DNA from: a virus
Length of the DNA: 50,057 nt
Reading direction: 5' to 3' (one strand)
Virus record (IMG/VR): IMGVR_UViG_3300035698_002599
Span: 1-50,057 of that record
The notes below the pieces were generated by a model. It had not been told where the DNA came from. It made no database searches and was given only the letters and a program-made list of their open reading frames with translations. Below, in pieces: positions 1 through 50,057 of this stretch (positions within the stretch are counted from its first letter, which is position 1; every line of letters starts with the position of its first letter). Both the position numbers and the translations under genes were made by a program.

Positions 1-127
1 AAACAGCAAAATTGATACGGAAGACCGGGTGGACATTGCCCGGCGCATTGCCTTTACGCTGCGTGAAGCTGCTGAGATTGAGAAGAAACAGAAAAAAGCT
101 GCTGCTGCCGCCCCGGTTGCAGAAAAG
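1..127. repeat. Terminal direct repeat, copy 1
   Basis: These 127 bases are identical to positions 49931-50057. The same terminase reading frame crosses the join without a break, so the repeat is the overlap of a circular assembly. An odd length of exactly 127 is a common assembler k-mer size, so it more probably reflects assembly overlap than a real packaged terminal repeat. The unique genome is then 49,930 bp. Confidence 0.95.
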
Positions 128-7077: not shown

Positions 7078-7332
7078 ATGAATACAGTAAGTAAAGAAGA
7101 CCTTCTTGAAGACCTTCTTGAAGCTTTGGGTGAGTACCAAAACCAGCGTGTTGCATTCCTGCAAGGCGCTGAGAAGCTAAGACAGCAAGCGCAACAAATG
7201 ATTGACCAAGCCAACGGTAGCGCCGGGGCGATTAAATACATTGAAGACACGCTTGCAACCTTAGAGGAAATCCCCCCGGCTGATGAACCGGAAGGGGATG
7301 CCAGTGACGGGCCAGCCAATAAATCTGCTTGA
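7078..7332 (+). CDS. Small helical protein upstream of large terminase
   Basis: 84 residues with a heptad-rich N-terminal two thirds (LLEDLLEAL, then Gln/Ala-rich helices) and an acidic C-terminus. AGGAG lies upstream of the ATG. The gene follows a terminator and overlaps the large terminase start by 50 bases, so the two are translationally linked. It may help packaging, but no family is recognised. The small terminase itself is the gene at 49356, identified by its own motifs. Confidence 0.6.
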   Translation: MNTVSKEDLLEDLLEALGEYQNQRVAFLQGAEKLRQQAQQMIDQANGSAGAIKYIEDTLATLEEIPPADEPEGDASDGPANKSA

Positions 7333-14022: not shown

Positions 14023-14050
14023 AGTTTTCCATTCTCCTGTGTTTGGAATA

Positions 14051-14084
14051 GGAAAGGCCCTGCTTCACGGTGGGGCCTTTTTTT
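14051..14084 (+). terminator. Rho-independent terminator
   Basis: AAAGGCCC (14053-14060) pairs with GGGCCTTT (14073-14080), followed by a run of T residues. Strong. Confidence 0.85.
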
Positions 14085-14090
14085 GTGTTC

Positions 14091-14119
14091 TTGCCGTCTT
14101 GGTTCATTTAAAGCATAAT
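14091..14119 (+). promoter_or_regulatory. Candidate late promoter before 14213
   Basis: TTGCCG (14091-14096), 17 bases, CATAAT (14114-14119). It lies directly after a terminator, and the paired 14-nt repeats start 11 bases downstream of the -10 box. The same -35 box occurs at 135. Placement makes it more credible than its match alone. Confidence 0.5.
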
Positions 14120-14130
14120 GGTGGCAACAT

Positions 14131-14158
14131 GCTCACACGAACATGCTCACCCCAACAT
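14131..14158 (+). repeat. Paired 14-nt late-leader repeats
   Basis: GCTCACACGAACAT (14131-14144) followed directly by GCTCACCCCAACAT (14145-14158). Same family as 182-209 and 26966-26995. Confidence 0.7.
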
Positions 14159-14212
14159 ACCAAATAATTGCGCTACACAGCGCATATCAACATTTACAGG
14201 AGAATATCACCC

Positions 14213-34533: not shown

Positions 34534-35607
34534 CTATAAATCATTTACAAAGCTTGGCAGGCTTTGGTAATCAATATGGCTGGGTTTAGACATGCCAACC
34601 CATGGGATATCACCGCCAAAATGTTGGTACGCGGACAGGAAGCGGTCTGCTGCTTTATCCAGCCGGGCCTTGCCCTGCGCCATTAATTCAGTATTTTTGC
34701 GGCTGTATATTCTGCCATCTGTGACAATCGCTTGGCCCTTCTGCTGGAATATAAACCTGAATTCCTCCACAGGCTGGGCAATAAAAGCTTCAAGCCATTT
34801 GGTTGGTATCTTGTCAGCGCCATATATGCGCCCGTTCTTGATATGCTCCTGTGCCGCCACAGCGCCCCGTAGGTACAGGGAAGGCTGGATGATGTACTTG
34901 CGGCTGGCTATTTCATGGTCAATGGCCTTGGTGAAGTCTCTGCCGCGCTCATTGGCAATTGTTTTTAAATCTGCGCAGGCCCCAATTTTGAGATAATCAA
35001 AACGGCACTTGAACCACAGGCCCAATTCTTCTTCATACCAGACAATGCTGACTTCTGGATAACCGCCCACCAGCCATGACCGCAGGTATTCATTGCTTTC
35101 AATGGCACGGGCGCCCATTTCAACGTCCCATATCAATTCTGACGGCAGCAATTCCCTGCCCGGATTGGCGCGGCGGTGCTTCTCTTTCAAAACTTCCAGC
35201 ACTTTTGCTGGTGGGTACGCCTTCATCAAGCGTTCAATGCCCTGCCCTTTATTGGTGAAGGTCACCTTTTCGCCAAGTTCACGCAGCTTGGCTTTCAATT
35301 CGGTGCTGGTTCTGATTACGTTTTTATCTGCGAGGTCGTCACAATATTCTTCTGCATAGGTTTCATAGAATGACTCCTTGCCCTCCAATATTCTGTGGTG
35401 ATACACCCGCCCGTCACGGAAGGCAGTGGTGTCCCGTTTCTTCAAGCGTGGATTAAGCCAGCTATTGGCCCAAAAATTTGAATGGTGGATAAGTAAATCC
35501 TTCACCCCGCTGTTAGACAGGCATTTAATACCAAGGTATTCAGGGAAGGGCATATCAAAATAGATACCGGGCTGTGGCATTGCCCATGGCCATTTGTTCA
35601 TTTTCAT
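34534..35607 (-). CDS. RecE-like PD-(D/E)XK exonuclease (DUF3799 type)
   Basis: 357 residues. The N-terminal segment has CLSNSGVKDLL (29-39), GRVYHH (66-71), then PEVSIVWY with Glu185. The core D204...ADLKT (D213, K215) and Q241...Y245 follow. These are the marks of the RecE/DUF3799 nuclease family, which resects double-stranded ends for recombination. AAAGGA lies upstream. A promoter of the shared early module lies directly before it, at the end of the preceding gene. Confidence 0.85.
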   Translation of the reverse strand: MKMNKWPWAMPQPGIYFDMPFPEYLGIKCLSNSGVKDLLIHHSNFWANSWLNPRLKKRDTTAFRDGRVYHHRILEGKESFYETYAEEYCDDLADKNVIRTSTELKAKLRELGEKVTFTNKGQGIERLMKAYPPAKVLEVLKEKHRRANPGRELLPSELIWDVEMGARAIESNEYLRSWLVGGYPEVSIVWYEEELGLWFKCRFDYLKIGACADLKTIANERGRDFTKAIDHEIASRKYIIQPSLYLRGAVAAQEHIKNGRIYGADKIPTKWLEAFIAQPVEEFRFIFQQKGQAIVTDGRIYSRKNTELMAQGKARLDKAADRFLSAYQHFGGDIPWVGMSKPSHIDYQSLPSFVNDL

Positions 35608-39852: not shown

Positions 39853-39999
39853 ATGAAAAATCAAAAATATAAAACCTCAGCTATACTTTCTGACGCACTG
39901 GTGGAACACCACCGCAGATTGTTTTGGATTGATGTAAAATTCTGGGCGGGGGTTGCACTGATTATAGCAATCACATTAGGGGCGATATTCTATGCCTAA
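39853..39999 (+). CDS. Small single-pass membrane protein
   Basis: 48 residues from the ATG at 39853 with GAAAGG upstream; an earlier in-frame start overlaps the promoter and is rejected. A basic N-terminus is followed by one membrane helix (about 29-46, FWAGVALIIAITLGAIF). First gene of the transcript from 39799. Unknown role. Confidence 0.65.
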   Translation: MKNQKYKTSAILSDALVEHHRRLFWIDVKFWAGVALIIAITLGAIFYA

Positions 40000-40345
40000 A
40001 ACTAAAAACTGCACCGCGCCGAATTGCACAGAAACAATCAAATTTAAGCACGCTTTCTGTCCGTCATGCTTTGCCTTTTTGCCACGCGATATCAAGACAG
40101 ATTTGATACAGGTGTACAAACACGGTATGGGCAAGCAATTGGTGGATACGCTGGCGGCGGCATGGGAATTATTGAAACAAAAACGACCAAAAGAGGAAGA
40201 AAAACCAATGGCTACAGGACAATCAGATATAATTGATATCGCGCTGGAAAAGCGCAAGGATAGCGCCAGCGGCTTGGCCACGGCATTTTGGAACGGCGAT
40301 ACGGAAGAAGACCGTGACGGCAATTACCGTGAAATATGGCTATAG
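39992..40345 (+). CDS. Zinc-finger-like protein, apparently fused in frame to next gene
   Basis: 117 codons to the TAG at 40343. Residues 1-72 carry Cys and His spaced as in a small zinc finger (C8, C12, H20, C23, C26) and resemble small phage zinc proteins. From Met73 (40208) the sequence looks like the start of a separate gene with its own ribosome site AGAGGAAG. There is no stop between the two, so the ORF reads as a fusion. See the amber-interrupted entry 40208-40444. Confidence 0.6.
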   Translation: MPKTKNCTAPNCTETIKFKHAFCPSCFAFLPRDIKTDLIQVYKHGMGKQLVDTLAAAWELLKQKRPKEEEKPMATGQSDIIDIALEKRKDSASGLATAFWNGDTEEDRDGNYREIWL

Positions 40346-40444
40346 CTGCCCAAAAGTAAAATTGAAGTTGAAGAAACTGGTAAGGGCAGCGTTTGTGAAG
40401 TGTCAATGCCTGAGTGGCTTGCGCTGGAAAAGGGGCTGATATGA
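40208..40444 (+). pseudogene. Early gene interrupted by in-frame amber (TAG) at 40343
   Basis: From the ATG at 40208 (ribosome site AGAGGAAG) the frame reads 45 codons, then TAG, then a further 32 sense codons to a TGA at 40442-40444. The part after the amber (LPKSKIEVEE...MPEWLALEKGLI) looks like coding sequence, and its stop overlaps the next ATG (40441) as ATGA, the usual junction in this operon. Removing six bases CTATAG would give an unbroken EIWLPKSK stretch. Either a broken gene, a readthrough product or a suppressor-dependent gene. Confidence 0.6.
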
Positions 40445-40845
40445 GACACAACGGATGCGAAAACAAAGAAGAATATGAAGCGTGGCTGGCCGGGCTGAAA
40501 ATCGGTGATGAAGTAAGAACTAGCACCAGATATGACAGCATACAGATTGCACGTATCATAGGGGAAACCCCAACGCGCTGGCGCATAGCGCATGAAATGT
40601 TCCGCAAAAAAGACGGCCAGATAATGGGGTCATACGGTAAAATTTACCGCCCGTCCTCGTATGATTATCATGCTGTTAAAATGGCTGAACTGCGTATGAT
40701 ATTAAGCGCTTACACCACGGAAGTTGACCGCAGGCGCAAGGAATTCCATACGGAAGAATTGGAAGCCATGGTGAAGGCCCTGAAATTGGGCGTGAAGAAA
40801 ATTGATAAGCGGAAGGAAGATAAAAAATGTCTGACCAAAAAGTAA
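40441..40845 (+). CDS. Hypothetical early protein
   Basis: 134 residues. N-terminal part WLAGLKIGDEVRTSTRYDSI and IGETPTRWRI suggest a small beta-barrel; the C-terminal half is a Lys/Glu/Arg-rich helix. The ATG overlaps the upstream readthrough stop. No family recognised. Confidence 0.65.
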   Translation: MRHNGCENKEEYEAWLAGLKIGDEVRTSTRYDSIQIARIIGETPTRWRIAHEMFRKKDGQIMGSYGKIYRPSSYDYHAVKMAELRMILSAYTTEVDRRRKEFHTEELEAMVKALKLGVKKIDKRKEDKKCLTKK

Positions 40846-41126
40846 AAGAACGCAAGCCTGATGTGATTATTGAGGACAAGGATGATGCGCTGGAAAATTA
40901 CCAAGGCCAGTGGGGTATCACGTTTGTTTCTAATGAGGGCAGCCACCACATTGACCTTGATGAACAGCATGACACTGAGGAAATCGCTGAAAACCGTATC
41001 AGCGAAGCGCTGGAATTGGTGCAGAACAGCGTCATGCACGTCCGCACAAAATCCGGGCTGAAAACATTTACCGTTGAAACGCTGGGGTATGCGTACCCAA
41101 TACCGCTGGGGGGTTCTAATGATTAA
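40827..41126 (+). CDS. Hypothetical early protein
   Basis: 99 residues, acidic in the first half, without Cys motifs or membrane segments. GGAAGG precedes the ATG. Overlaps the previous gene by 19 bases and the next by 8. Unknown function. Confidence 0.6.
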   Translation: MSDQKVKERKPDVIIEDKDDALENYQGQWGITFVSNEGSHHIDLDEQHDTEEIAENRISEALELVQNSVMHVRTKSGLKTFTVETLGYAYPIPLGGSND

Positions 41127-41241
41127 GAAAATCAAAGATTTTATTACCGCCTGCGCGATTATTGCCGCTATTCTGGCTTTTATCGGGATTATTGTGATGG
41201 TGTTTCTTGCTGAAATTGGCTTCCGCTGGGGGGCTTGCTGA
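41119..41241 (+). CDS. Small membrane peptide
   Basis: 40 codons with a basic start (IKKIKDF) and one hydrophobic helix (TACAIIAAILAFIGIIVMVF) followed by a short tail. It overlaps both neighbours. Its TGA overlaps the next ATG (41241). Unknown role; small phage membrane peptides can inhibit host functions. Confidence 0.55.
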   Translation: MIKKIKDFITACAIIAAILAFIGIIVMVFLAEIGFRWGAC

Positions 41242-41489
41242 TGCCAGTGCAATATTCACACATAGTACGTTTTTAGAAGACAGAAGACGGCGAGAAAGAA
41301 GATAATAACGGCTGGCACCATGTACACAGCATTGATGATAACCGCGCCCTATGTAACGGCCAAGTGTATGGCTTTGGTGGAAGCGATTTAACCAATGAGG
41401 ACGGCCATGATTATGATGAAGGCGTGGGGAAAGTGACGTGCAAGGACTGCCGCGCAATAATCAAAGATATTAAAAATATTAAGCTTTAA
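41241..41489 (+). pseudogene. Second early gene interrupted by in-frame amber at 41274
   Basis: ATG at 41241, 11 codons (MPVQYSHIVRF), TAG at 41274-41276, then 70 sense codons to TAA at 41487-41489. The part after the amber (KTEDGEKEDNNGWHHVHS, ...GKVTCKDCRAII) is typical coding sequence with a CxxC motif; ALCNGQVYGFG adds another Cys. It is followed by AGGAGA and the next ATG at 41501. A single codon is affected, so readthrough or suppression would restore an 82-residue protein. Confidence 0.65.
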
Positions 41490-41500
41490 GGAGAACACCG

Positions 41501-41665
41501 ATGCCTGATGAAGAATTGACAAAAGAAGAAGTGTTGGAAATCGCCGCCAAAAAGGCGGCCAATGAATTTTACATGGTTTACCCGGCAGCAAAAAACCAGC
41601 TACCACAGGGCGCGAAAAAGGGGCTTGAAGATTTGATTGCCCGGCACATGAAGGGAATTTCATAA
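41501..41665 (+). CDS. Small hypothetical protein
   Basis: 54 residues, helical and charged, with AAGGAGA upstream. Its TAA overlaps the next ATG (TAATG). Too short for a confident family call. Confidence 0.6.
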   Translation: MPDEELTKEEVLEIAAKKAANEFYMVYPAAKNQLPQGAKKGLEDLIARHMKGIS

Positions 41666-42030
41666 TGACCAAAGATGTTGAAATAATAAAACAGGAGATT
41701 GTGGCTGATATTTCAAAAGGCCGTGAACTGATAAACAAGGATGTTCTTTACCAAATTATCAGTGAAGGCGTGAATTATATGAAGCACCGGGGCTATATTG
41801 CTGACGCCAGCAATAATACCAACACAGCGGCGTTGGAAGCTTTGAAATCTTGGCCGTGCGCAGGCATGGGTGATAATAAAGTAAAAGAGGTTATGCGCTT
41901 TGTGAATACACACCAGACCGCTTTGATAGCAGGGCTAGAGGTGCTTTGCGGTAAGACACACATGGACGTTTTGGATGAAAAATTTGAAAAATCGGTAGCT
42001 AAAGCCAAAATATTAGGAGGTAAGGCATGA
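41665..42030 (+). CDS. Hypothetical early protein
   Basis: 121 residues, helical, with a conserved-looking middle (SWPCAGMGDNKVKEVMRF). No zinc or enzyme motif visible. Coupled by overlap to neighbours on both sides. Unknown function. Confidence 0.6.
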   Translation: MTKDVEIIKQEIVADISKGRELINKDVLYQIISEGVNYMKHRGYIADASNNTNTAALEALKSWPCAGMGDNKVKEVMRFVNTHQTALIAGLEVLCGKTHMDVLDEKFEKSVAKAKILGGKA

Positions 42031-42497
42031 CACAGAAAATAAAACAAGGGGCACCGTTCTATGGTGGAGACTATGACCATGGACGCGACCACAAGCGCCT
42101 GACAGGCCAGCTTTTGAAAATCTGGGACACATTCAGGGACGGGCAGTGGCATACGCTTCAAACGCTCTCAAGGGACACAGGGGCACCAGAAGCTTCCGTA
42201 TCTGCTGGACTGCGCACTTTGCGCCGGGCAGATTATGGTGGGCATACCGTGGTGAAAGAATTTATTAAGGACGGCAATGGCCAATATCGTTACCGACTCG
42301 GTGCAGCCACTAAGCCTGAGCCGATTAAACCAACTGCCAGTGCCTATGAACGCGCAGTGGATTCTTTGAAGCGCAAGGGGCATGGCCATGTGGTGGAAAA
42401 GCCAAATGGCAATAAAATGAAATGCGGTGGCATATCAATCTGCCGGATTTGTAAGAAAGAACAGCAATTTTTAGAAATGCAGAAAGGCAGATTATAA
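42027..42497 (+). CDS. Winged-helix protein with C-terminal Cys motif
   Basis: 156 residues. Residues about 20-95 read as a winged helix (WDTFRDGQWHTLQTLSRDTG, then SAGLRTLRRADYGG and a strand pair). A C-terminal SICRICKKEQQ adds a CxxC. It probably binds DNA and may regulate early genes. Overlaps the previous gene (ATGA). Confidence 0.65.
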   Translation: MTQKIKQGAPFYGGDYDHGRDHKRLTGQLLKIWDTFRDGQWHTLQTLSRDTGAPEASVSAGLRTLRRADYGGHTVVKEFIKDGNGQYRYRLGAATKPEPIKPTASAYERAVDSLKRKGHGHVVEKPNGNKMKCGGISICRICKKEQQFLEMQKGRL

Positions 42498-42874
42498 TGT
42501 TACACCCATATTCAACATCATTCAGTTGGAAGTGCTTTTTAACCCCGCTGGTCATAGTGATTGGCATAGTTTCAATCCCCGTCACCTTTGCCGTACGGCA
42601 TGAGGCGGCCCGTGATGCCAAGACGCAGGCGCACAGGGACGCGGCCCCGTTTGAAGCGGGTGATTTGGTGCGCATGAAAGCCTTTGGGCATATCGGCATG
42701 GTTGTCCGGGCGCCGTGTTATTGGCGGGGATGCACCTATACCGTGCGCTTCTCTGCTCTGAAATCGTCCACGCAGCACCATGTATTTGGCAGCGGTGGTG
42801 ATATTGATGTGGCGCCAGTCACGCTGGTTGGCAACATTAAGGAATTTGAACTAGAAATCTTTGAAAGGAAATAA
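42497..42874 (+). CDS. Membrane-anchored protein with small beta-barrel
   Basis: 125 residues. One membrane helix (about 14-33) near the N-terminus, then a region (DLVRMKAFGHIGMVVRAPCYW) with the pattern of a KOW/SH3-like barrel. No signal cleavage site is clear. Unknown role. Confidence 0.55.
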   Translation: MLHPYSTSFSWKCFLTPLVIVIGIVSIPVTFAVRHEAARDAKTQAHRDAAPFEAGDLVRMKAFGHIGMVVRAPCYWRGCTYTVRFSALKSSTQHHVFGSGGDIDVAPVTLVGNIKEFELEIFERK

Positions 42875-42876
42875 TC

Positions 42877-43134
42877 GTGAGTTACAAGCTAAATTTAAAA
42901 GACCCTATCCGTAAGTCCAACCTTGCCCTGCGCCGCGTGCGCCAGCGCTCTTACACTGCCACAGTGCCGTATCTGCACCCCGGCAAGTATAACGGGGAAG
43001 ACCTGCGGAAAATACGCCAGAAGAACGGCGTGGGCGGCCCACCTGCCAAATGTAATTGGGCGCAGGCCGGGCAAATGAACCGTTTACACACTGAAATCAT
43101 GCAAAAAAGAAAGGAACGCCATGAAGTCCAATAG
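42877..43134 (+). CDS. Small basic protein, GTG start
   Basis: 85 residues from a GTG at 42877, which has GAAAGGAA upstream. Arg/Lys-rich, so a nucleic-acid contact is possible. No family recognised. Overlaps the next gene by 14 bases. Confidence 0.55.
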   Translation: MSYKLNLKDPIRKSNLALRRVRQRSYTATVPYLHPGKYNGEDLRKIRQKNGVGGPPAKCNWAQAGQMNRLHTEIMQKRKERHEVQ

Positions 43135-43426: not shown

Positions 43427-43619
43427 TGTATCTATCAATGGCCCGGATAAATCGCCATTGAATCTGGGCTGCCATGTCTGTGGGCATGAATGGTGTAAAA
43501 AGCTATCCATGCCCATGGAGCTTGGGAAATTTGCCGACTTATTGCGTAATCAATCCTGCCCAAAGTGCAGCGCTGCGTCAAATTTCACATACATAGGCCA
43601 TAAGGAGAAAAAGCCATGA
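43419..43619 (+). CDS. Zinc-ribbon protein (start uncertain)
   Basis: 66 residues if it starts at the GTG at 43419, which fits the operon spacing; an in-frame ATG at 43371 is an alternative. CHVCGHEW and CPKCSA form two CxxC pairs, a zinc ribbon of the kind found in small phage proteins. Its stop overlaps the LexA-like gene (ATGA). Confidence 0.6.
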   Translation: MVDVSINGPDKSPLNLGCHVCGHEWCKKLSMPMELGKFADLLRNQSCPKCSAASNFTYIGHKEKKP

Positions 43620-43984
43620 GACACGGATTAACCAAACGTCAAAGAGCGCTATTTAATATCATTGAGTTATATGTTGAAAAACACGGTGTGTCTCCGTCCT
43701 ACAGGGAACTGATGGTGCTGGCTAATTATACGTCATTGGGTTGTGTGGCGCGGCTGCTTAATGCCTTGGTTGAGCGCGGCTGGATTGCCAAACGCCTGAA
43801 CAGAAAGCGCTGCATTACAATTTTACCAGAAGATGATTTGATAAGTCCGGGTGATAAACTGGTGGATGAAAATGGAAATTATTTTACTTACTCTGGACAA
43901 AAACTGATTACGCGTGGTTTCATAGACAAACAAACGAATCGGAATTTGAATAGGAACGCAGAACATGACCATGAACATTTTTAA
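43616..43984 (+). CDS. LexA-like winged-helix regulator
   Basis: 122 residues. Residues 5-65 match the LexA DNA-binding domain pattern: LTKRQRALFNIIELYVEKHG, SPSYREL, then GCVARLLNALVERGWI. The C-terminal part is short and lacks the LexA self-cleavage domain, so it would not be SOS-cleavable itself. AAGGAGA precedes the ATG. A likely early or host-gene regulator. Confidence 0.75.
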   Translation: MRHGLTKRQRALFNIIELYVEKHGVSPSYRELMVLANYTSLGCVARLLNALVERGWIAKRLNRKRCITILPEDDLISPGDKLVDENGNYFTYSGQKLITRGFIDKQTNRNLNRNAEHDHEHF

Positions 43985-44427: not shown

Positions 44428-45006
44428 ATGACCCAGACCGCAGAAAAAAATACAATCAGTACGCCAATAGAAGCTGTTGCCTTGGCTAATTATTTATCAA
44501 TAACAAGGGCGGCGGGGTTGCCAGATAGTTTGGCAGAAGAAACCTATGCAGACAATAAGGAATCAGCAGACAAGTTGGCTGAATTTACTTTGAATCATGA
44601 TATGAGTCGTGGGGATAGGGCGCATAATATAATGAAAGTAAATTCAGCCCCTAAGCGCGGAAAAGCAGACCAAGAACGCGCAAAAATTCAAGCCAAAAAA
44701 GATAAAGCCACAGCTGATAAGAAAGCTGCCGAGGATACAAACGCCGCTGTTGTTGATCTTGGCGGTGTGGCAGGCAAGCGTTTGCTGTCATTCATTGAGC
44801 GTGTGGAACGCCTTGAAGAAGAAAAGGCAGCGCTGGCTGAGGATATCAAAGAGATTTACGCTGAATTAAAAGGCGTTGGCTATGATGCCAAAACAACCCG
44901 TAAAATTGTCAAGCTGCGGGGAACGGATTCTGAGAAGCGCAGAGAAGACGCAGAATTATTGGACTTGTATATGTCCGCAATCGGCATGCAGCCAAGCCTG
45001 CTTTAA
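44428..45006 (+). CDS. GapR/DUF2312-like DNA-binding protein with extra N-terminal domain
   Basis: 192 residues. The C-terminal 80 (about 109-189) match the GapR/DUF2312 pattern: LLSFIERVERLEEEKAALAEDIKEIYAE (in part), GYDAKTTRKIVKLRG, and a final LLDLYMSAIGM. GapR is a nucleoid protein of alphaproteobacteria that binds overtwisted AT-rich DNA and aids replication. The N-terminal 105 residues are unrelated to GapR and of unknown role. It may act in phage replication or manipulate the host nucleoid. AGGAAAAT precedes the ATG. Confidence 0.8.
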   Translation: MTQTAEKNTISTPIEAVALANYLSITRAAGLPDSLAEETYADNKESADKLAEFTLNHDMSRGDRAHNIMKVNSAPKRGKADQERAKIQAKKDKATADKKAAEDTNAAVVDLGGVAGKRLLSFIERVERLEEEKAALAEDIKEIYAELKGVGYDAKTTRKIVKLRGTDSEKRREDAELLDLYMSAIGMQPSLL

Positions 45007-45029
45007 TTTAACCAAGGGAGACTATGAAC

Positions 45030-45509
45030 ATGAAATCTTTTTACGGAACAAAGCGCATTGATGCGCAGCCAATAACCCGCGCAGCCTACAATGAGCATAA
45101 GGGCTGGACAATGCCTGCTGATGAAAACGGCGCTGATGAAGGTTACTTGGTGGAATATGAAGGTGGTTACCAGTCGTGGTCACCCAAAGATGTATTTGAA
45201 AAGGCTTATCTGCCTGAAACTGCCATGACATTTGGCGGTGCGCTTGAAGCGCTGCAATCAGGAAAGCGCGTAAGACGTGCGCATTGGAAAAATGTGAATT
45301 ACGTTTATCTTGTGATGGGTAGCCAATTTCAAGTCAACCGCCCACCATTGTTGGGATTATACAATGAGGGCACGGAAGTCCAGTACGCGGCGCACATTGA
45401 TGCGTGCCTTGTTCCGCCAGAGGGTGATTTGGATAAGGTTCACACAGGAGTCTGGACAGCCAGCATGGGCGATATTCTCGCCAATGACTGGTGCGTAGCT
45501 GACCATTAA
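45030..45509 (+). CDS. Protein with C-terminal Tad2/DUF2829-like domain (possible anti-Thoeris)
   Basis: 159 residues from the ATG at 45030 (GGGAG at good distance); ATG 45024 is an alternative. Residues about 1-60 form a separate phage domain with AYNEHKGWTMPADENGADEG and SWSPKDVFEKAYLP. Residues about 67-157 fit DUF2829: MTFGGALEALQSGKRVRRAHW, a YVYLVMG strand and an ending ILANDWCV. Some DUF2829 proteins (Tad2) bind the Thoeris signal molecule and block that defence. The binding residues cannot be verified by eye, so anti-defence activity is an inference. Confidence 0.65.
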   Translation: MKSFYGTKRIDAQPITRAAYNEHKGWTMPADENGADEGYLVEYEGGYQSWSPKDVFEKAYLPETAMTFGGALEALQSGKRVRRAHWKNVNYVYLVMGSQFQVNRPPLLGLYNEGTEVQYAAHIDACLVPPEGDLDKVHTGVWTASMGDILANDWCVADH

Positions 45510-45553: not shown

Positions 45554-45619
45554 TAGTGAGTTGATACAAACACGCGCATGAATAAAAAAATAAAATTAAT
45601 AAATTAGAGGATGATAATT

Positions 45620-45823
45620 ATGGCTACAGGCAAAGTAAAATGGTTCAACGAGGACAAGGGATACGGATTTATCGTGCCCGATGATGGCACAGAAGATGCT
45701 TTCGTGCATATCACAGCCGTCAAGGACAGTGGTGCGCACCCAATTGCAGAAGGTGACAACGTGTCATTTGATGTTGAGGATAGCCGTGGCCGCAATTGCG
45801 CCGTGAATTTGGCGAAGGTGTAA
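45620..45823 (+). CDS. csp: Cold-shock domain protein
   Basis: 67 residues from the ATG at 45620 with GAGGATG upstream; an upstream ATG at 45611 is less likely. VKWFNEDKGYGFIVP carries RNP1 (KGYGFI) and DAFVHI is RNP2, the RNA-binding face of CspA-type proteins. It probably keeps RNA single-stranded or affects transcript termination. An AT-rich leader and an inverted repeat precede it. Confidence 0.95.
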   Translation: MATGKVKWFNEDKGYGFIVPDDGTEDAFVHITAVKDSGAHPIAEGDNVSFDVEDSRGRNCAVNLAKV

Positions 45824-46100: not shown

Positions 46101-46149
46101 GAATTCAGAAGCGTGCAGCGCGTATGCACAAACTGATAGGCCTAAAGCC

Positions 46150-46185
46150 GCGCTGGGGTGGCGTAAAACCTGCCCCAGCTTTTTT
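46150..46185 (+). terminator. Rho-independent terminator / attenuator before KTSC gene
   Basis: GCTGGGG (46152-46158) pairs with CCCCAGC (46173-46179) around a 14-base loop, followed by a T run (46180-46185). It lies in the leader of the gene at 46214. Confidence 0.85.
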
Positions 46186-46213
46186 AAACACTAAACACAG
46201 AAAGACTAAAATT

Positions 46214-47089
46214 ATGGAAGCACAAGCAAAAGTACCAGAAGACGAAGCGCAAGCGGAAACTTCAAGCCCTGCGGACATGGTTGCCGTTGAAAGCAGCAAT
46301 ATTGCCCACGTAGGATACAACCCTGCCAATGAAGGCCTTTATATCAATTTTAAAGATGGCTCGATTTGGGAGTATTTGGGCGTCACCAAGGCTACCTATG
46401 ACGAATTATTGGCCGCTGATAGCGTAGGGAAGTATTACCACGCGCATATTAAGGGCCAAGACTATCTTTCAAAGCGAATTGATATTGAACCGCCTACACC
46501 TGAAAATGCGGACACGGTTGAATCTTCCCCGGAAGTGCGGGAAGGCCAGCCAACACCTGTTGGTGAAGCGCCTGCTGCAATCGCTGATGATAGCGGTAAT
46601 CCCCACCCCATGACGGCTGGTGAAGCTGTTGGTGGTAAAATTACCGATGAAGACCCGTTGGGTGTTGCTGACGGTGCTGAAACGGCTGATTTCCATACTG
46701 GCAGTCATGCTGATATGGCAGAAGGCAGTGCTGGCGTGGGTCATAATGGCGGCCCTGCATTGGATGAAAACGATGCGCCAGAAGCCCCGGAAGCCCCTGA
46801 TGCTGTGGATAATAGCGGTGATAACACTGTGGATACTCCCGCAGAAACATCACCAGACACCACGGAAGCTGACGGTGGACAAGTTGCGGATAACGCCTTG
46901 GGCAATCCCCTTGACGTTGCTGCATGGTCGCATGATGAAGGCGGCCTTGTTGTTGCGCTGGTAAATGGTGACTCGTTCACTTACCCAGACGCACCAAAAG
47001 AACTGTGTGACGGTATGGCAGCGGCTGGTAGCCCAACGCGCTATTACCAAGCACAGGTGGTGCCCCATTATGAGGGCGTCCAAGCTTAG
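46214..47089 (+). CDS. KTSC-domain protein with GHNGGP motif
   Basis: 291 residues from the ATG at 46214, chosen because an earlier in-frame ATG (46124) would place the terminator inside the gene. A KTSC domain covers about 26-82 (SNIAHVGYNPANEGLYINF, then SVGKYYHAHIK). A long Asp/Glu/Pro/Ala-rich linker follows with GHNGGPALDE at 176-185, a motif I know from alphaproteobacterial phage proteins. The C-terminal 60 residues look like a decayed second KTSC unit. Hairpin terminators lie on both sides. Function unknown. Confidence 0.75.
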   Translation: MEAQAKVPEDEAQAETSSPADMVAVESSNIAHVGYNPANEGLYINFKDGSIWEYLGVTKATYDELLAADSVGKYYHAHIKGQDYLSKRIDIEPPTPENADTVESSPEVREGQPTPVGEAPAAIADDSGNPHPMTAGEAVGGKITDEDPLGVADGAETADFHTGSHADMAEGSAGVGHNGGPALDENDAPEAPEAPDAVDNSGDNTVDTPAETSPDTTEADGGQVADNALGNPLDVAAWSHDEGGLVVALVNGDSFTYPDAPKELCDGMAAAGSPTRYYQAQVVPHYEGVQA

Positions 47090-49359: not shown

Positions 49360-50057
49360 CCAACGCTAAAAGCAACGTATCAGGATTGACTGAGAAGCAG
49401 GAAGGCTTTGCACGCCAGTATGTTGCGCCTCACGTCACCAATGCTTACAAAACCCTGTTACCGGAAGACCTGCCCTTCAATGGCACAAGGGCCGTCATAC
49501 GCGCTGGGTACAGTGAGAAGGGGGCGAGTGCTGCGGCCAGCCGTTTGTTAGCAAATGTTAATGTTCAACAATTTATGGCGACACTGCAAAAACCAGTGCT
49601 TGAACGCTATGAGGCAACCCATGATGAATTGATATCTAAGCTGAACCGGATGGCCATGGCTAACATAGGCAACTTTATGCACCGGGATGAAGCCAGTGGT
49701 GAAGCGTGGATTGACGTTACCAAGGCAACGCATGATGAATTGCAGGTGGTTGGGCAGTTTGAGGTGACAGAATTGCCGCCACAGAAGTACGTGGAAGACG
49801 GTGAAGAAGTCGTGCGCGAAGTTATCCGCACCAAAATCAAGCTGAAAGACGATTGGAAACCATTGGAAGCGCTGCTGCGTCACCATAAGCTGTGCAATAT
49901 CCCTGATGGTGAAGCTGCCAGCATTAATATAAACAGCAAAATTGATACGGAAGACCGGGTGGACATTGCCCGGCGCATTGCCTTTACGCTGCGTGAAGCT
50001 GCTGAGATTGAGAAGAAACAGAAAAAAGCTGCTGCTGCCGCCCCGGTTGCAGAAAAG
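49356..50057 (+). CDS. terS: Small terminase subunit (N-terminal part, continues at 1-133)
   Basis: 234 codons to the window end; the last codon and stop are at 128-133. The N-terminal SGLTEKQEGFARQYV, a TRAVIRAGYSEKGASAAASRLL helix-turn-helix (shown in part) and VQQFMATL follow the Terminase_2 pattern. A central helical oligomerisation region and a charged Ala/Lys-rich tail follow. It recognises phage DNA for packaging with the large subunit at 7283. The two terminase genes are separated by about 8 kb of virion genes, which is unusual. Confidence 0.88.
   Translation, partial: MTNAKSNVSGLTEKQEGFARQYVAPHVTNAYKTLLPEDLPFNGTRAVIRAGYSEKGASAAASRLLANVNVQQFMATLQKPVLERYEATHDELISKLNRMAMANIGNFMHRDEASGEAWIDVTKATHDELQVVGQFEVTELPPQKYVEDGEEVVREVIRTKIKLKDDWKPLEALLRHHKLCNIPDGEAASININSKIDTEDRVDIARRIAFTLREAAEIEKKQKKAAAAAPVAEK
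49931..50057. repeat. Terminal direct repeat, copy 2
   Basis: Exact copy of positions 1-127. It shows that the window is circular, or circularly permuted, and was cut inside the small terminase gene. Confidence 0.95.

Follow-up and report, generated by a model that had tools for sequence, protein, structure and literature searches.

Does an in-frame amber codon near the start of a small viral gene mark a broken gene, a gene that is read through, or an error in the sequence? The question is raised by gene 2 in the early region of a virus record (IMGVR_UViG_3300035698_002599), the whole of which, 50,057 bases, was analysed and is referred to here as the window. The original prediction, made from the sequence alone, had pointed out that codon 12 of this gene is TAG, that another early gene under 1 kb away (gene 1) carries a single in-frame amber as well, and that two such genes side by side are hard to explain by chance. 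The features concerned are collected in Table 1.

Table 1. Positions in the window of the two interrupted genes, their neighbours and the terminal repeats
Feature	Position	Strand	Remarks
Left terminal repeat copy	1..127	+	exact 127 bp
Gene 1, 150-codon frame, interrupted at codon 118	39992..40444	+	homology
In-frame TAG of gene 1	40343..40345	+	aligned relatives (see text)
First ORF between the ambers; ATG overlaps the gene 1 TGA (ATGA)	40441..40845	+	read directly
Second ORF between the ambers	40827..41126		
Third ORF between the ambers, small membrane protein; its TGA shares bases with the start of gene 2 (TGATG)	41119..41241	+	
Gene 2, 82-codon frame, phrog_15583 family, broken at codon 12	41241..41489	+	homology, coding score
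In-frame TAG of gene 2	41274..41276	+	codon 12
AAGGAG and ATG of the gene downstream of gene 2	41488..41503	+	ATG at 41501
Right terminal repeat copy	49931..50057	+	exact 127 bp

The phage and its likely host

The exact 127-bp repeat at the two ends of the window implies a circular, complete assembly; the terminase small subunit gene, from 49356, extends into this repeat. Genes for head, connector and tail proteins are present (phrog_332, phrog_3437, phrog_376 and phrog_979) and, by these genes, the window falls with many IMG/VR contigs and with tailed phages that are distant kin of Pelagibacter phage HTVC010P. Compared with the window, the nearest relative scores 69% for the portal and 77% for the head protein. 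Since prophage-like relatives of this phage are held by proteobacterial genomes and a GapR-like protein is encoded in the window, the host is probably a proteobacterium and perhaps an alphaproteobacterium. The GapR-like DNA-binding domain (PF10073, E 3e-27) lies at 44428-45006, is 73-77% identical in two relatives (G025 and G002), and belongs to a family typical of Alphaproteobacteria.

Gene 2 is interrupted within a conserved frame

The description of gene 2 in the original prediction was borne out in each part: the TAG at codon 12 is followed by 70 open codons containing a CxxC motif (TCKDC), by a normal stop (TAA, 41487-41489) and by the ribosome site of the downstream gene. The ATG of gene 2 (41241-41243) shares bases with the TGA of the upstream ORF in a TGATG coupling. 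An open frame of 70 codons would by itself arise by chance with p ~0.02-0.03; that the frame is more than chance follows from its coding score beyond the TAG, about +18 to +19 bits in frame (the two remaining forward frames score +0.5 and -30), and from the homology of the read-through protein. In this protein residues 7-82, which flank the TAG, align with phrog_15583 (E 5.8e-15), and residues 3-82 with a gene of Aeromonas phage 59.1 (E 3e-7); Cellulophaga phages also match. At the amber column the residue is lysine in Aeromonas phage 59.1 and isoleucine, within an I/L region, in Cellulophaga, the comparison resting on three sequences only; the sense codon at this site is seen in Aeromonas and Cellulophaga phages only, and no further homologues were found in bacterial genomes or plasmids.

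In common with phrog_15583, Aeromonas phage 59.1 APU00868 and Cellulophaga phage phi12:1 gp15, gene 2 carries CxxC and IIxxIKxxKL C-terminally, so that the C-terminal motif and the cysteine pair are preserved behind its TAG. These homologues, in contrast, are uninterrupted, with K or I close to the position of the amber.

Gene 1 is interrupted at a conserved tryptophan

Gene 1 is as had been described earlier, with a TAG at 40343 and then 32 codons to a TGA. It consists of a Cys-rich N-terminal domain (phrog_36250) fused to a phrog_8389-like C-terminal domain, and it matches both Rhodobacter phage RcZahn gp85 and phrog_8389 across the TAG. Uninterrupted counterparts are found in IMGVR_UViG_3300010430_000066 (full length, 150 residues, 45% identity) and IMGVR_UViG_3300032212_000510 (146 residues, 43% identity). 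The C-terminal LPxSQIE...MPEWLA..KGLI of the latter, of phrog_8389 and of RcZahn gp85 is homologous to that of gene 1, but all three are uninterrupted and have tryptophan (asparagine in RcZahn) where gene 1 has TAG. In an alignment of 25 relatives, window excluded and several of them near-copies of each other, the amber column holds tryptophan in 24, threonine in one and a stop in none.

The residues of gene 1 beyond the amber are identical to those of relatives at 20/31, 18/32 and 20/32 positions, and the uninterrupted relatives are identical among themselves at 19/31, 22/31 and 19/32; since the two sets are equal, there has been no time for the tail to decay. The case for gene 1 is the firmer of the two. 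Because the TGA of gene 1 and the ATG of the next ORF overlap, the amber could also be polar on that ORF. In many other phages the phrog_36250 and phrog_8389 domains are not joined, and at the domain junction of gene 1 (codon 73) an ATG with a purine-rich leader persists.

It is clear that homology spans the TAG in each case, and both interrupted frames are thus real genes, as had been supposed; comparison with relatives at both amber sites, the check that had been proposed, gave sense codons throughout and TAG in none.

Spacing and rarity of the two ambers

The two TAGs are 931 bp apart, within the 1 kb first given, and the two genes are indeed close; they are not side by side, however, as three ORFs lie between the ambers (Table 1). 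A genome-wide scan gave exactly two interrupted frames, both with TAG. In the unannotated gaps clearly positive coding after a stop amounted only to +8 bits over 32 codons (gene 1) and +19 bits over 70 codons (gene 2), the sole other such segment being an uninterrupted gene at 7078. In an all-against-all translated comparison with relatives, the two ambers were the only recognised mid-gene stops between stretches of conserved sense sequence. The other candidate stops that this comparison raised, in relatives, were rejected: on inspection they mostly fell in antisense frames, ahead of start codons or at the ends of genes, with a few not settled individually. Matches of >=50 bits to relatives account for only ~20 kb of the window and, because of this limited coverage, the search for interrupted genes is strongest for structural genes. 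Comparison with these relatives showed no frameshift in the window, and no near-identical strains were found in IMG/VR by exact DNA around either amber.

Chance was also assessed. The codon make-up of the early genes is such that ~34-37% of the single-base changes that create a stop yield TAG; given two nonsense mutations, the probability that both are TAG is ~0.12-0.14, and simple arithmetic puts the probability of so close a spacing within the 11.6-kb accessory region at roughly 0.15. The pair is therefore unusual, as was claimed, but it is not inexplicable by chance.

TAG is a working stop elsewhere in the window

The original prediction had TAG as an ordinary stop at 1850, 10861 and 32387; this holds for the first two and plausibly for the third. 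Further genes terminated by TAG are found at 34534 and 37518 (both on the minus strand), 38694, 43134, 47089 and 47458, and about ten genes end in this way, with the next genes beginning at once. For five of them relatives stop with TAA or TGA at the same place or within a few codons. Global reassignment of TAG was rejected on these grounds, in keeping with what had been proposed: because TAG terminates genes at conserved ends, the code is not reassigned as it is in table-15 phages. In-frame back-up stops lie 1-13 codons past the TAG-ended genes, and similar distances are seen for TGA-ended genes.

Search for a suppressor tRNA and read-through signals

No tRNA was found in the window by ARAGORN, or by Rfam up to E 1, and a custom scan gave no cloverleaf with a CTA anticodon; the hundreds of hits from ARAGORN at relaxed settings were noise and were discarded. 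A phage-encoded suppressor tRNA was rejected on these three empty searches and, the genome being complete, no recognisable suppressor is supplied by the phage. Nor was a suppressor tRNA found in the 11 relatives scanned, nine of them over their whole records, where the only tRNAs were tRNA-Met and tRNA-Arg. In the nearest relative a tRNA-Met (L114:13246-13322) lies between two structural genes; the equivalent gap in the window (14023-14209) contains a terminator-like hairpin only.

RNA structure 3' of the two TAGs was not beyond chance when compared with shuffled sequences (z -1.01 and 0.48). Among 385 genomes from the class to which the alphaproteobacterium Chelativorans belongs, a class tentatively suggested for the host, none gave a match to pyrrolysyl-tRNA synthetase; the positive control, Methanosarcina acetivorans, was detected.

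Origin of the two ambers

The simplest account is that two dispensable early genes each carry a nonsense allele that is recent or polymorphic, an explanation with about an even chance of being correct. Genes 1 and 2 would then be genuine small early accessory genes, with one recently arisen amber each. Ribosomes of an ordinary host would halt at the TAG of gene 2 to leave an 11-residue peptide, in effect a null, and gene 1 would yield a 117-residue protein that keeps the N-terminal Cys-rich domain and loses the conserved C-terminal tail; as the genes would not be essential, such alleles may briefly reach the consensus of the phage population. We infer dispensability, recent origin and inefficient reading of TAG as sense. 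The sense codons at both amber columns in relatives support nonsense alleles and, because gene 1 is undecayed after its TAG and the motifs of gene 2 are kept, the ambers are young, or suppressed, or not real. Furthermore, the nearest relative (G025) has an intact gene 1 but not the block 41119-43120, which holds the gene 2 cassette; the lack of this whole block argues for gene 2 as an accessory gene and fits dispensability. In a published analysis (Belinky et al. 2021, PMC7918605), most in-frame stops of bacterial genes were short-lived, on a polymorphism time scale, and the mobilome category was enriched in them. Against nonsense alleles, both stops are TAG, with no TAA or TGA, and lie very close together, and the genome is an outlier, no other such mid-gene stop having appeared in a comparison mainly of conserved structural genes.

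Alternatively, a UAG suppressor tRNA in the host or in a co-infecting element may partly decode UAG and make the ambers nearly neutral, which is possible though on balance unlikely. Both genes would be made at a reduced level, and TAG would still terminate, suppression being partial and back-up stops nearby. Such host suppression would fit the sequence about as well as recent nonsense alleles do: TAG is the sole interrupting stop in both cases, the frames beyond the ambers are intact and conserved, and the back-up stops would make weak suppression little harmful, although those of the TGA-ended genes are similar. It requires an unseen tRNA, however, when the complete phage genome and the scanned relatives hold no suppressor, the pyrrolysyl-tRNA synthetase was found in none of the 385 genomes from a class hinted at for the host, and TAG has not accumulated in other genes. 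It is also conceivable, if rather improbable, that the phage is adapted to a natural amber-suppressing host and that its full-length accessory products are conditional on host genotype; such a phage would have no tRNA of its own and would carry ambers in accessory early genes, here one at a conserved tryptophan.

An assembly or sequencing error, in which two consensus bases would be incorrect and the population would have sense codons, is less likely than either nonsense alleles or host suppression, and is improbable in itself. The window is a single contig with no near-identical record found for comparison, which leaves room for error; yet the assembly is circular and complete with its 127-bp overlap, frameshifts and other interrupted genes are lacking, and two random substitutions that were both nonsense would imply many more errors. 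True recoding, with TAG as sense (code 15), or programmed, site-specific stimulated read-through would agree with the protein conservation that flanks each TAG, but is very unlikely given the genes that normally end in TAG, the lack of a suppressor tRNA and of RNA structure after either TAG, and the fact that the amber is kept in no relative; further, an 11-residue gene 2 product is unlikely as a regulated form, and recoded phages have many in-frame TAGs where here there are two. Finally, a true start of gene 2 located 3' of the TAG, raised beforehand as a possible objection, was rejected and can be dismissed as extremely improbable: a GTG at 41364 does begin a 41-codon ORF, but it is codon 42 and the first candidate, no ATG, GTG or TTG occurring within 41277-41363; a start there would lose the conserved N-terminal VVRI and WH segments and, because the match and the annotated starts of the homologues precede the amber column, it is excluded as the ancestral form.

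Relation to known systems

Single in-frame stops in conserved, non-decaying frames, often TAG and enriched in the mobilome, have been described (Belinky et al. 2021, PMC7918605) and are alike to those seen here; those stops, however, are orthologous and common to several genomes, whereas the TAGs of the window are found in one genome only. Table-15 phages (crAss-like, Lak; PMC9523058, PMC11210395) likewise have TAG within conserved phage genes, but in many of them, whereas the window has two, no tRNA, and TAG still in use as a stop. A CTA suppressor tRNA is encoded by about half of TAG-recoded phages (52%, PMC11210395).

If the ambers are read through, an environmental phage that encodes no suppressor tRNA would here depend on its host for natural amber suppression, an early stage toward stop-codon recoding. 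If they are not, they would be null alleles of two accessory genes in a phage population, and a caution, as gene callers drop or truncate both genes.

Other genes of the window

A Tad2-like protein (PF11195, E 2.8e-15) at 45024-45509, in the early region, is a candidate anti-Thoeris protein. A LexA-type DNA-binding domain occurs alone (PF01726) at 43616-43984, and a KTSC domain protein (PF13619, E 5e-26) at 46124-47089 is found in the same gene order in relatives. The phage also bears a cold-shock protein (PF00313) at 45611-45823, the coding sequence of which gives a weak Rfam match to cspA.
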